From positions 1-32,857 of the forward strand of contig JAKAPQ010000009.1 in assembly GCA_021806945.1 (NCBI GenBank): a stretch of 32,857 nt of DNA, in the 5' to 3' direction. The notes under the pieces are model-generated. The model did not search any database, had not been told where the DNA came from, and saw only the letters and a list, made by a program, of their open reading frames with translations. The position numbers and the translations under genes were made by a program. The stretch comes from a bacterium (lineage in GTDB: Bacteria; Vulcanimicrobiota; Vulcanimicrobiia; Vulcanimicrobiales; Vulcanimicrobiaceae). Positions 16,976 to 21,593 of this stretch are shown here, piece by piece. The first letter of the stretch is position 1; the number at the start of each line of letters is the position of its first letter.

Positions 16976-17922
16976 AGGCGGCTCACTGCGACCAAATCGC
17001 CAATTATCGCCGACGCCGTTTGCTCGCGCCCCGCTCCAGGCCCGATCAGAGTCAGAGTACCGCATCCACGCCCAATCACGCGAACCACGTTCTGCGCTCC
17101 CGTCGCTGCGGCCATCGGATCGGCAAGCGGCACGACGACCGGCTCGACCACCGCCTCCAATCGAGTGCGATTTCCTTTGAGCGTGGCAACCAAACGCAAG
17201 GCGCCGCCGTCGGCACGCGCGTCGCGGACCTGCCGGCGATCGATCGCCTCGATGCCGGTGCGCGCAATGCTTTGCCACGGGAGCCAGCGCTCGAACGCGG
17301 CGTGAGCGAGCAGCGAGAGCTTTTGCGCCGTGTCGGTGCCGTTGAGATCGTTCGCGGGATCGGACTCGGCATATCCGTGTGCCCGCGCCGATTCGAGCGC
17401 GGCGCCGAACTCGCAGCCGGCTTCCATTGCGACCAAGATGTAGTTGGTCGTGCCGTTCAGGATTCCGGATATTTCGAGGATCTCTTCGCCGGCCAGCGCC
17501 GAGCGCAGCACGGAGAGCGCCGGAATAGCACCGCCCACTGCTGCGTCGAACAGCAGCTGGACGCCGCGATCGCCGGCAAATGCGAAAAGTTCCGGTCCGT
17601 GCGTTGCGATGAGCGCTTTGTTGGCAGAGACGACGTGCTTGCCGCAGGCTATCGCCTCCTTTACGAGATCGTATGCCGGCTCGAGCCCGCCCAGGCATTC
17701 GACGATCACGTGGGTGCGCGAGTCTCGAATAACATCCATGGCATCCGCGGTCACATGCGCCATGACTGCCTGCGGGTGACGCGTTTTTCGAACGTCGCGT
17801 ACGAGTACGCCCCGAAGCGAAAACGCCGCCACGTCGCGGTCGTGCGCGTGCAGTAGGCGCTCTGCTACGCCGCTGCCGACGGTTCCGCACCCAAGGAGGC
17901 CGACGTTCACGGTGCGTTTCAT
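16972..17922 (-). CDS. hom: Homoserine dehydrogenase without C-terminal ACT domain
   Basis: VNVGLLGCGTVGSGVAERL, VSANKALIATHG, FDAAVGGAIPALSVLR, ILNGTTNYIL, GYAESDPANDLNGTDTAQKLSLLA; 316 aa. Confidence 0.94.
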   Translation of the reverse strand: MKRTVNVGLLGCGTVGSGVAERLLHAHDRDVAAFSLRGVLVRDVRKTRHPQAVMAHVTADAMDVIRDSRTHVIVECLGGLEPAYDLVKEAIACGKHVVSANKALIATHGPELFAFAGDRGVQLLFDAAVGGAIPALSVLRSALAGEEILEISGILNGTTNYILVAMEAGCEFGAALESARAHGYAESDPANDLNGTDTAQKLSLLAHAAFERWLPWQSIARTGIEAIDRRQVRDARADGGALRLVATLKGNRTRLEAVVEPVVVPLADPMAAATGAQNVVRVIGRGCGTLTLIGPGAGREQTASAIIGDLVAVSRL

Positions 17923-18809
17923 GCCGTCGCCTTCGTAACAAGCAACCCCTGCGATGCAATCGCCGTCGGCACGATCCGCGCACCGACTCCGGCACGCCTA
18001 AAACACGCCGCTACGCGATCCGGCGCGTCGCCCGCGCCACCCTCCGAGAGCAGCAACACGCTTGGCCCGGCCCCGGACAGCACGACGTGCACGCCGAAAG
18101 CCGATTGCCCTAGCGCTTCCGAAAGACCTGGGAAAAGCGCTGCCCGGTACGGTTGATGAACGCAATCGCGAGTGGCGAGATCGAGCCGTGCGAGCCGCCC
18201 GCTCGCCAAACAAGCCGCCAGCATGCTCGCGCGCTGTAACGATCGGCCGACGTCGGCGCGCGCGTACGATGCCGGCAGCACCCGTCGCGCGGCAGCCGTA
18301 TCCAACGGGCGATCGGGAATGACGAGCGTGCAGCGCAGCGCCTCCGGCACCGGCAACGGCAACGTGCAGAGGTGCGGCCCTTCTTGCAGCACGAAACATA
18401 AGCCGCCGTAAAGTGCCGCCGCTGCGTTATCGGCGTGGCCTTCGGCCTGCACGAGTAAGCGCAGCATTTCATCTCTCGAGACCGCGTCGCCCCGAGCTCG
18501 GTTCGCAATCGTCATCCCGCAGAGCAACGCTGCAGCGCTACTGCCCAAACCGGCTCCAAGCGGAATATCGTTGTGAATATCGATCTCGAAGGCAAACGAT
18601 TGTGGAGCCTCGGCGATCAATGCGATGCCCGCGCGAACGCGCTCGGCCAGCCCGTCATGCGTCGGCAGCTGCGAACCGGTAACGCGTACGTACGGCGGAC
18701 CATCGCCGGCTCTCGCGCGTGCCGTCATGCGCAGATCGAGCGCGATCGCGACCGAATCGAATCCCGAGCCGAGATTCGCCGAGCTAGCCGGCACGCTGAC
18801 TTCGATCAT
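17919..18809 (-). CDS. thrB: Homoserine kinase (GHMP family)
   Basis: VPASSANLGSGFDSVAIAL, DIPLGAGLGSSAAALLCGM, HADNAAAALYGGL, VVLSGAGPSVLLL. Confidence 0.94.
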   Translation of the reverse strand: MIEVSVPASSANLGSGFDSVAIALDLRMTARARAGDGPPYVRVTGSQLPTHDGLAERVRAGIALIAEAPQSFAFEIDIHNDIPLGAGLGSSAAALLCGMTIANRARGDAVSRDEMLRLLVQAEGHADNAAAALYGGLCFVLQEGPHLCTLPLPVPEALRCTLVIPDRPLDTAAARRVLPASYARADVGRSLQRASMLAACLASGRLARLDLATRDCVHQPYRAALFPGLSEALGQSAFGVHVVLSGAGPSVLLLSEGGAGDAPDRVAACFRRAGVGARIVPTAIASQGLLVTKATA

Positions 18810-20074
18810 CGGAGCGCCTCCACGATCGCCCGCTCCAGCGACGGCAGATCGCCGGCAACGCGGCGCAACGGATTCGCTAACGTCTTACTTGGGTCGCCAT
18901 GGTAGCGCTCGATGCTCGCGACGTCTTTGAGGCTCGATCCGGTAAGAAGCGCGACGACGTCGTCTGCAGCGGCGATCGTGCCGCGTTCGCGTAACGCCGC
19001 CGCACCCGCCAGCGTTGCGGCCGAAGCGGGTTCGCAGGCCAGCCCGTCGCGCGCGAGCACGGCGCGCGCTTCCGCGATTGGATCGTCGTCGATCGCGATA
19101 GCGGTGCCGGCAGTCGCATGCAGAGCGCGCAGCGCCGGACGCCAAGAGACCGGGTTCCCGATTTTGATCGCGGTCGCAAACGTCGTGGCATGCACCGGGA
19201 CGAGCGGTTCGTTCTGCTGCCATGCGCGCACGAACGGCGCGGCACCCGCAGCTTGCACGACGGCGATTCGCGGCACGCGCTCTGCCAAACCGAGCGCCTG
19301 CGCTTGTAGAAATCCCTGCGCGAGCGCCACGCAATGTCCGAGGTTGCCGCCCGGAACGATGACCCAATCGGGCGCGCGCCACCCACGGGCTTCGAGCAAT
19401 TCGAACGCAACGGTCTTCTGCCCCTCGCGCCGGAACGGGTTGAGGGAGTTGACGAGATAGACGGCGCCACGTAGCGCGAGCTCGCGCGCCGCCTGCATCG
19501 CAACGTCGAAGTCGCCGTCGATGACGAGCGCGATCGCGCCCGCATCGAGCGCCTGCGCGAGCTTCGATGTTGTCACATGCCCCGCGGGTAAGAGCACCAC
19601 CGCCGGCAGGCCCGCGCGCGCTGCATAGACGGCCAAACTTGCCGAGGTATTCCCCGTACTGGCGCACGCCAGAACGCTCGCGCCAGCGGCTCGCGCCCGG
19701 GTTACGGCGACGGTCATCCCCGCATCTTTGTACGAACCGGTCGGATTGCAACCGAGATGCTTGACCGCGAGTCTCTCGAGCCTGCTCCAGGCTGCCGCTC
19801 GTTCCGCACGCAACTCCGGAGCGTTGCCTTCTTGAAGCGTCACGATTTGCGAATCGTTCACGGGTGGCAAGAGCTCGCGAAATCGCCAAACACCGCTACG
19901 TTCGTGCAACACCTGCGAGGCCAGCCTCGAACGGAACACGGCGCGTGCGTCGCGCGGCAGCGTGAGGCCCCGCTCGTACGTGACGTTAACCACATCGCCG
20001 CACGATGCGCACGGCATCGATTCCGATCTTTCAGGCGCATTTGTCGCGCACGTCCCGCATGATAACACCAACAT
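18806..20074 (-). CDS. thrC: Threonine synthase
   Basis: N-terminal CGTC/CASC zinc-ribbon-like motif, KHLGCNPTGSYKDAGMTVAV, ACASTGNTSASLAVYAARAG, VPGGNLGHCVAL. ATG 20074 preceded by GAGGAG. Confidence 0.93.
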   Translation of the reverse strand: MLVLSCGTCATNAPERSESMPCASCGDVVNVTYERGLTLPRDARAVFRSRLASQVLHERSGVWRFRELLPPVNDSQIVTLQEGNAPELRAERAAAWSRLERLAVKHLGCNPTGSYKDAGMTVAVTRARAAGASVLACASTGNTSASLAVYAARAGLPAVVLLPAGHVTTSKLAQALDAGAIALVIDGDFDVAMQAARELALRGAVYLVNSLNPFRREGQKTVAFELLEARGWRAPDWVIVPGGNLGHCVALAQGFLQAQALGLAERVPRIAVVQAAGAAPFVRAWQQNEPLVPVHATTFATAIKIGNPVSWRPALRALHATAGTAIAIDDDPIAEARAVLARDGLACEPASAATLAGAAALRERGTIAAADDVVALLTGSSLKDVASIERYHGDPSKTLANPLRRVAGDLPSLERAIVEALR

Positions 20075-20100: not shown

Positions 20101-20125
20101 GGCCCCCACCATCTCGGTGAGGGCC
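20101..20125 (-). terminator. thr attenuator hairpin
   Basis: Minus strand GGCCCTCACC-GAGAT-GGTGGGGGCC, 10-bp stem, weak T tract (GTTTG). Confidence 0.65.
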
Positions 20126-20152
20126 GCCGTCGACTGCTAGGAATTCTAGCGA

Positions 20153-20236
20153 TTACGACAATAGCGCGCCCACCGAGCTCCCGAAGGTGCTCGTAACGGT
20201 CGTCTGCGAAGTGCTAATCATCGCGGATGCATACAT
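20153..20236 (-). CDS. thr leader peptide MYASAMISTSQTTVTSTFGSSVGALLS
   Basis: 27 aa with five Thr and one Ile; ATG 8 nt after -10; attenuator hairpin follows, then thrC. Confidence 0.8.
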   Translation of the reverse strand: MYASAMISTSQTTVTSTFGSSVGALLS

Positions 20237-20244
20237 GTCTGGTT

Positions 20245-20273
20245 AACCTAGCATGCAACCGGTGGAGTGTCAA
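20245..20273 (-). promoter_or_regulatory. thr operon promoter: TTGACA-N17-TAGGTT
   Basis: Consensus -35 at 20273-20268, -10 at 20250-20245, ATG at 20236. Confidence 0.75.
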
Positions 20274-20312: not shown

Positions 20313-21593
20313 TTACCGCACGAACAGATAGCCTTGGTTCGGAATCGTCAGGATGTACCTCGGGTTCGCGGGATCTTCCTCGATCTTCTTGCGCAGGTTA
20401 TGCATGTGCACGCGCAGCGCCGCGAGTTCTTCTTTACCGTCCGACCCAAAGAGGCAACGCGCAGCCTCCTCCGCCTCGACGACGCGCCCAACGTTGTCAA
20501 CGAGCACCTTGAGCAACATCGCCTGGCGCACCCCCAAACGCACTTCGCGTCCGTTGACCCGCAGCTTCCGCAATTTCAGATCGAAAAGTATCGAAGCCAC
20601 AGCCGGGAGCGTGCTGCCCGTTACGAACGCCTCATGCAGGGCTTGTTCGGCCGCGGCCGCCTCGTGCTCCTGAAGTAGCAGCGAAATCGTGACGTTGCTA
20701 TCCGTAAAATGGAGGACCGTGATGTCGCGCTCCCGGAGCGCGGCAAAGACTTTACAGAAGACGCCGACCGTGCTTCTGATCCCACTTCCCACGACGCACA
20801 CTTTCGCGCAATGGGTCGTGGCGTGCGAGTGCAGCGAGAGTTCTGCGGCGATGTCTTGCGCGAGGTTGACGCGGTCCGCGTCGACGGTGAAGCGCATTCG
20901 CTTAGGAAAGAACTGCAGCATCTCGAGCGATACGCCACGGTCCGCAAGCTGCTCGATCATCTGCGTTCGCTGCCTCCGCCAGCGATCGCCATCGTCGTGC
21001 GTCGGGCGCACGCTTACGAATGCGGCCCCCGTCGATATGGTAATGGACGTAACCGGTTTCGAGCGTTCTTCGAACGCGTCGTCTCGAACGATCGTCCCGC
21101 GATTCTCAAGAACGCTGCGGATTTCATAGGGTACGCCCAACTCGCGCGCCCGCTCGGCCGCAACGGGCGGCAGCGCGCCGGCGCGCAGATCCGCGAGTTC
21201 CATCAACTCCATGTAACTTGCAAACTCTACGGTGGTTGCCGTCGGCACGCGTGCCGGATCGGCGGACATTACGCCGTGCGCATCGGTGTATACGATGACG
21301 CGTGCCGACTCGAGCCTCGCGGCGAGCGCCATCGCCTCAGCCTGACCCCCCCCGACCAGGATCGGCATCCCGCTGTGCGAACGATCGCCGGCATCTCCTA
21401 TCGCACGATGGTCTGGAAACAGCGTCGACGAGCAGCCCCGCTGCAATAGTGCGCCGGCGACGGCCGCGGGCGATGCGCAGACGACGATGACCGCCGCCCC
21501 CCCGTCCCGAAGGTCGGCGATCCGTGCGACGATGGCATCCATCAATCGTGCGTTCTCTACGACCGGGCGCCCGAAAGTGACGACGTCAACCAT
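20313..21593 (-). CDS. Chimeric regulator: degenerate aspartokinase-like domain, two ACT domains, C-terminal OmpR/PhoB-type winged helix
   Basis: AK-like: VGGGQAEAMALAARLESARVIVYTDAHGVMSADPARVPTATTVEFASYMELMELADLRAGALPPVAAERARELGVPYEIRS. ACT: VCVVGSGIRSTVGVFCKVFAALRERDITVLHFTDSNVTISLLL. wHTH: LRKLRVNGREVRLGVRQAMLLKVLVDNVGRVVEAEE...LRVHMHNLRKKIEEDPANPRYILTIPNQGYLFVR. Confidence 0.88.
   Translation of the reverse strand: MVDVVTFGRPVVENARLMDAIVARIADLRDGGAAVIVVCASPAAVAGALLQRGCSSTLFPDHRAIGDAGDRSHSGMPILVGGGQAEAMALAARLESARVIVYTDAHGVMSADPARVPTATTVEFASYMELMELADLRAGALPPVAAERARELGVPYEIRSVLENRGTIVRDDAFEERSKPVTSITISTGAAFVSVRPTHDDGDRWRRQRTQMIEQLADRGVSLEMLQFFPKRMRFTVDADRVNLAQDIAAELSLHSHATTHCAKVCVVGSGIRSTVGVFCKVFAALRERDITVLHFTDSNVTISLLLQEHEAAAAEQALHEAFVTGSTLPAVASILFDLKLRKLRVNGREVRLGVRQAMLLKVLVDNVGRVVEAEEAARCLFGSDGKEELAALRVHMHNLRKKIEEDPANPRYILTIPNQGYLFVR

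Follow-up and report, generated by a model that had tools for sequence, protein, structure and literature searches.

The window analysed here, a stretch of 32,857 nucleotides from an uncultured bacterium of the phylum Vulcanimicrobiota (Eremiobacterota), carries on its minus strand a threonine-biosynthesis operon in the order thrC, thrB, hom and lysC, followed past lysC by ilvB, ilvC and ilvD (Table 1). The thrC start codon (ATG) is at 20074, with GAGGAG upstream. Before it lie a sigma70-like promoter, a short open reading frame holding five threonine codons and, 27 nt past the stop codon of that frame, a GC-rich terminator hairpin. A first-pass annotation of this DNA had named the same four downstream genes, which the gene assignments confirm, and had placed the promoter, leader frame, terminator and complementary segments correctly when read on the minus strand; it proposed a threonine attenuator before thrC.

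Table 1. Features of the threonine operon leader and neighbouring loci, in window coordinates.
Feature	Position	Strand	Remarks
Sigma70-like promoter, TTGACA-N17-TAGGTT	20245..20273	(-)	Read from sequence; plan shared with relatives of family f1
Promoter -35, TTGACA	20273-20268	(-)	17-nt spacer to -10
Promoter -10, TAGGTT	20250-20245	(-)	8 nt to leader ATG
Leader ORF, 27 codons, peptide MYASAMISTSQTTVTSTFGSSVGALLS	20153..20236 (ATG at 20236)	(-)	Thr codons 9, 12, 13, 15, 17
1:2 (anti-antiterminator) hairpin, CGAGCACC-UUCG-GGGAGCUCG	20174..20193	(-)	RNAfold
Antiterminator 5' arm (region 2), CUCGGUGGGCGCGCUAUUGUCGU	20155..20177	(-)	Duplex dG -27.7
Antiterminator 3' arm (region 3), CGACGGCGGCCCUCACCGAG	20113..20132	(-)	Overlaps terminator 5' arm
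Terminator hairpin (3:4), GGCCCTCACC-GAGAT-GGTGGGGGCC	20101..20125	(-)	GC-rich, dG -20.3
Weak U tract, GUUUGCAUAAG	20100-20090	(-)	Directly 3' of terminator hairpin
thrC, threonine synthase	18806..20074	(-)	TIGR00260
thrB, homoserine kinase	17919..18809	(-)	TIGR00191
hom, homoserine dehydrogenase, 316 aa	16972..17922	(-)	Without C-terminal ACT region
lysC-like aspartate kinase, 247 aa	16232..16975	(-)	Catalytic domain only, no ACT domains
Leader before ilvB, branched-chain, MPIATRLLVRVLLTRPFHSDPCRSAFA	ORF 16179-16096; unit with terminator 16179-16046	(-)	Same promoter-to-ATG spacing
Leader before ilvA remnant/regulator, MFRAFMLATLTIMRTVSNRRRMATA	ORF 22160-22083; unit with strong terminator 22160-22031	(-)	Attenuator-like
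Aspartate kinase C-terminal part (ACT domains) fused to OmpR-type winged helix (P0001)	20313-21593	(-)	Directly upstream of thr leader

Two of the pairings are larger than had been described. The antiterminator was originally given as CTCGGTG (20177-20171) with CACCGAG (20119-20113), and these segments are exactly complementary in the window, but the true duplex extends over about 20 nt (20177-20155 with 20132-20113). The seven-base-pair version alone was rejected, as each congener departs from it at one position (CTCGATG, CTCGGCG), whereas the longer duplex holds in all three. The 1:2 hairpin is likewise present but exceeds the CACC/GGTG pairing first noted, and its 5' side consists of the codons for Thr15, Ser16 and Thr17.

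Viewed by itself, the window gives an incomplete signal. The -10 hexamer matches the consensus at three of six positions and the promoter was missed by a mechanical scan; the terminator was missed by the scanner because its tail has fewer than five T, the longest run being three consecutive U, in line with the earlier remark that the T tract is weak. The whole leader region folds modestly better than shuffled sequences (z -1.92), and five threonine codons in nine arise with a frequency of about 1e-4 under nucleotide shuffling of the window frame (shuffles with stops scored as failures). Such statistics were rejected as proof of the element, the folding score and the consensus scans being insufficient, and comparison with relatives was therefore needed; it is conservation in relatives that raises the window element above chance. 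Where a long U tract might be expected, TTGCAT stands 3' of the hairpin (20100-20093), and the same hexamer follows the hairpin of thrC leaders in genera g1 (that of the window), g7, g11, g30 and part of g33.

Threonine-codon leaders with the same plan were found 25 times, spanning nine genera and two families of Vulcanimicrobiota, and in every one about 20-28 nt separate the stop codon from a terminator hairpin. A covariance model built from seven thrC leaders contributed one more thrC leader (G060) and ten others; two further candidates (L203, L208) were examined and left out of the 25, and the low-scoring matches that were inspected (E above about 1e-6) were discarded, being mostly bare terminators or threonine-rich coding sequence. 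Fifteen leaders precede thrC and ten (for example MSALCVMMTTTITTTTTLGEGRSGSTSA) lie elsewhere, in genomes where thrC has none. Eight of these ten clearly precede hom, the homoserine dehydrogenase gene, with the identity of Hom checked by Pfam for one of them; the remaining two (L198, L205) stand outside that count because the downstream frame is illegible. hom stands first behind the threonine leader in genomes of genera g9 and g20. When the region upstream of all thrC copies was searched, most genomes had no threonine leader there: at several such loci an ilvD-like or other coding sequence directly precedes thrC, and several of these genomes have a threonine leader before hom instead. Since the leaders stand before thrC or, where legible, hom, the threonine-codon leader accompanies threonine-biosynthesis genes despite operon rearrangement. 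The leader conservation that the first-pass annotation had asked about thus extends across nine genera, and the attenuator that it proposed is supported by leaders with the same terminator and antiterminator logic in 25 genomes. Both the anatomy of the window element and its conservation are direct observations.

Within the window's genus, the congener peptides MYAAAMISTLQTMSTSAFWSSMSVLLS and MCAMAMISTSQTISTSAFGISASVQLS have the same frame length and layout as that of the window, threonines 9, 12 and 15 are invariant across the three congeners, most codon changes are nonsynonymous, and the terminator region is conserved at an identity of 0.91-0.94. Other genera of the family have unmistakable poly-threonine leaders, namely MMLFASSVTTTTTTTTTTTTGGRFGVGLT (G008), MISMFVSTTTTTTTTTTVVRCRVDVG (G031) and MTIFGLAATTTTTTTTLRAFGVGLM (G092), and the second family, f2, has leaders such as MYCTIITTTTTTITRSQGLWAGAALR. 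Threonine codons number five of 27 in the window, three in each congener and 4-13 in the other relatives (8-13 in most of those outside the window's genus), so the genus has the poorest threonine leaders within the thrC set. The peptide had been called new and threonine-rich; its sequence is new, but its threonine content is reduced relative to that of relatives.

This composition bears on which amino acid the leader would sense. The leader might respond to several amino acids (Ile, Ser and Thr, or translation in general) and not to threonine as such, and the conserved core of the genus, I-S-T-x-Q-T-x-x-T-S, the mixture of Ile and Thr in family f2 leaders (MYCTIITTTTTTITRS), the role of threonine as precursor of isoleucine and the presence of ilv genes downstream would all fit. 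We consider this unlikely, given that threonine is overwhelmingly dominant in the relatives, that the same threonine leaders go with hom in other genera, and that ilvB has separate leaders with branched-chain codons.

In every leader, the 3' part of the frame, after the threonine codons, can pair with the bases preceding the terminator and with the terminator 5' arm. The window duplex exceeds dinucleotide shuffles (z -3.0, p 0.012), as do those of all three congeners, the window's included (each p 0.008-0.012), and, overall, those of 22 of the 25 leaders (p<=0.012), these genomes being related and not independent trials; for the three f2 leaders p was 0.06-0.09. When seven relatives are aligned, the antiterminator register has 84.6% of its cells paired, against at most 45.7% when it is slid by 1-3 columns. 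Compensatory changes, which the first-pass annotation had suggested as a check alongside conservation, are few. MAFFT misaligned the arms of genus g1 against the others, and covariation was counted on the seven alignable sequences only; two antiterminator pairs (not above shuffles) and three terminator pairs changed on both sides. Covariation was accordingly rejected as proof. The arm shared by the antiterminator and the terminator hardly varies, plausibly as a result of its taking part in both pairings.

The alternative-structure analysis that had been recommended was carried out on 14 leaders by folding with a simulated ribosome (A-site plus 15 nt masked). At most threonine-codon positions tested, a stall lets at least eight antiterminator pairs form while the terminator 3' arm is still to be transcribed. 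For the window the count is 11 with the ribosome halted at Thr13, and at Thr9 or Thr17 the antiterminator is partial, with six. When the ribosome instead occupies the stop codon, the terminator alone folds in all 14 leaders. In these models the antiterminator and terminator pairings are energetically exclusive of each other. Once the hairpin is complete, the terminator mostly wins at thermodynamic equilibrium even with a stalled ribosome, so the switch must act co-transcriptionally, through kinetic folding, which is the accepted mode of working of known attenuators. The hairpin could instead be only a terminator or an mRNA-stability element, with the short frame spurious, and the consensus scans, in which promoter and terminator are weak, and the modest folding score of the region would allow for that; the frame, its codons, its spacing and the mutual exclusion of the two pairings are conserved across 25 leaders, which makes such an account highly improbable.

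We conclude, with a probability of about 0.86, that the window element is a ribosome-mediated (leader-peptide) threonine transcription attenuator of thrC-thrB-hom-lysC. We infer that the leader is translated, that the response depends on threonine, and that transcription terminates at the hairpin in the cell. The signal sensed would be charged tRNA-Thr. RNA polymerase would start 0-3 nt ahead of the leader ATG, giving a nearly leaderless 5' end on which a ribosome would load. With ample threonine, the ribosome would reach the stop codon and mask region 2, the terminator 3:4 would fold, and transcription would end before thrC. When threonine is short, the ribosome would stall at threonine codons 12-15, over the 5' side of the 1:2 hairpin, leaving region 2 exposed to pair with region 3 before the terminator 3' arm is made, and the polymerase would read through into the operon.

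The start of the leader is close to its promoter. The -10 element precedes the leader ATG by 8 nt in the window and by 6-12 nt wherever the promoter of a leader is clear, and relatives of family f1 share the plan TTGAC-N17/18-TAnnnT, 8-12 nt before the leader ATG. As a -10 element at 8 nt leaves no room for a Shine-Dalgarno sequence, translation of the window leader is probably leaderless. The pattern TTGAC-N17..19-TANNNT-N6..11-ATG has 26 matches in the window's own genome (a 2.36-Mb draft) and two for the reversed pattern. The matches include thrC and further units of mini-ORF and terminator before ilvB, the ilvA remnant/regulator, a metY-like gene and the DAHP synthase gene. The metY-like and DAHP synthase leaders (L135 and L136, on contigs C2 and C20) are both of the leaderless type with a terminator; the former, MFRLTMRMLGFMCCTQRRAARAVFA, is rich in Met and Cys and precedes a PLP enzyme of Cys/Met metabolism, probably metY, and the latter, MTVSVSRSYSYWWQTPHSWCR, carries Tyr and Trp. 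The same search rule, a promoter followed after 6-12 nt by a mini-ORF and then a terminator, found leaders of ilvB, thrC, hom (MFTRPTTMICPMCGMQEACGGDRRA) and DAHP synthase in genome G008 and of ilvB and a class-IV aminotransferase in G037, so that other attenuators were recovered in all three genomes tried, and it offers a simple means of finding attenuators. The codons of these leaders match the amino-acid genes behind them, for ilvB, metY and DAHP synthase in the window's genome and for ilvB, hom and DAHP synthase in G008, which adds support to the attenuator reading of the threonine leader.

Several of these loci have features of their own. The hom leader of G008 (L167, C23:78374-78413) combines Met, Cys and Thr codons and is distinct from the pure threonine leader before thrC in that genome. 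The ilvB leader unit is kept in the congener L032 (11375). Also in L032 (5781 onward), the gene after the MFRAFMLATLTIMRTVSNRRRMATA-type leader is cut to about 11 codons, and the leader and terminator stand directly before the regulator gene. A leuA-like HMGL gene in the window is preceded (about 9677-9523, minus strand) by a leader-type promoter and a strong terminator hairpin, AGCAGAAGCCCCCGCC..GGCGGGGGCTTCTGCT, that lies inside a short frame with no clear Leu run.

The gene directly upstream of the threonine leader encodes the ACT-domain part of an aspartate kinase joined to a winged helix, and it holds this position in all three congeners. Homologues occur in a few other genera (G071, G073, G103, G110, G027), and at L035 a trp operon ends with a shorter ACT-winged-helix version. 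The main rival to attenuation arises here: in the window's genus the leader may be a decaying relic, with threonine sensing largely passed to this regulator at the thr promoter and the hairpin giving constitutive partial termination. Threonine codons do fall from 8-13 in most relatives to 5, 3 and 3 in the genus, and the regulator that accompanies the operon in all three congeners has ACT domains where the operon's LysC and Hom are without theirs. Against decay stand a promoter, frame length, threonines 9, 12 and 15 and terminator/antiterminator that are kept in the three congeners (identity 0.91-0.94 in the terminator region), and an antiterminator duplex that beats shuffles in each (p 0.008-0.012). 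We regard the relic as doubtful, if less so than sensing of several amino acids; the regulator may share threonine control with the leader and could equally be a second layer.

A broader reading, which we put forward only tentatively, joins these observations. Vulcanimicrobiota would possess genome-wide leaderless leader-peptide attenuators for threonine, branched-chain amino acids, Met/Cys and Trp/Tyr, and in the window's genus a second layer over the thr operon would have come about by movement of the aspartokinase ACT part onto a winged-helix DNA-binding protein, itself placed behind a Thr/Leu/Ile leader-terminator that once belonged to an ilvA gene since lost. With the ACT part on the regulator and the operon LysC and Hom free of ACT domains, enzyme feedback would on this broader reading have been converted into transcriptional control.

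Among known systems, the threonine attenuator proposed here most readily recalls that of E. coli thrL/thrABC (Rfam RF00506, Thr_leader), whose logic the first-pass annotation had invoked. The two share a leader frame with threonine codons, the 1:2, 2:3 and 3:4 pairings, and a terminator before the first threonine-biosynthesis gene. The likeness ends at the 5' end, where thrL has a Shine-Dalgarno-bearing 5' UTR whereas here the leader ATG lies 8-12 nt from -10 (8 nt in the window) and is probably leaderless; here also the U tract is weak, and thrC comes first (hom in other genera), in contrast to the gammaproteobacterial order thrA-thrB-thrC. The window had no match to Rfam Thr_leader at E<=10 and none to the other Rfam families, T-box and metabolite riboswitches included; among the relatives the best Thr_leader score was 34.5 bits (L009), below the gathering cutoff of 55, and membership in that family was rejected.

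In its probable leaderless start the element resembles actinobacterial attenuators, in which the leader frame lies at or next to the transcription start site (as predicted here) behind a TTGACn/TAnnnT promoter, with regulatory codons and, in several cases, a Rho-independent terminator. Leaderless leader-peptide genes are established in Streptomyces lividans (trpL1, ilvL, leuL), with nearly the same promoter motif as in the window's genome (PMC8079986), and in Corynebacterium glutamicum for ilvBNC (PMC11857589). No threonine attenuator has been reported there before threonine-biosynthesis genes: the S. lividans 'thrL' precedes thrS and has two Thr and no clear terminator (PMC8079986), and no conserved RNA structures were found for actinobacterial threonine operons (PMC1262725).

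Leader-peptide systems were known to a genome-wide study of 2010 from Proteobacteria and Actinobacteria alone, with hisS of Firmicutes as its own addition (PMC2965389), and a 2013 survey of 255 genomes suggested that the Rfam amino-acid attenuators, that of threonine included, originated in gammaproteobacteria (PMC3766115). In the open-access literature, attenuators of threonine-synthesis genes were found described only for gammaproteobacteria, and no earlier threonine attenuator in Vulcanimicrobiota was found. Lying outside Rfam Thr_leader and without a precedent in that literature, the element carries a known mechanism into a new phylum; its gene targets are new as well, and its leader is probably leaderless. 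A conserved threonine attenuator that serves other targets than thrL, with no Rfam-level similarity to it, argues that the mechanism is older than the gammaproteobacterial examples or has arisen repeatedly.
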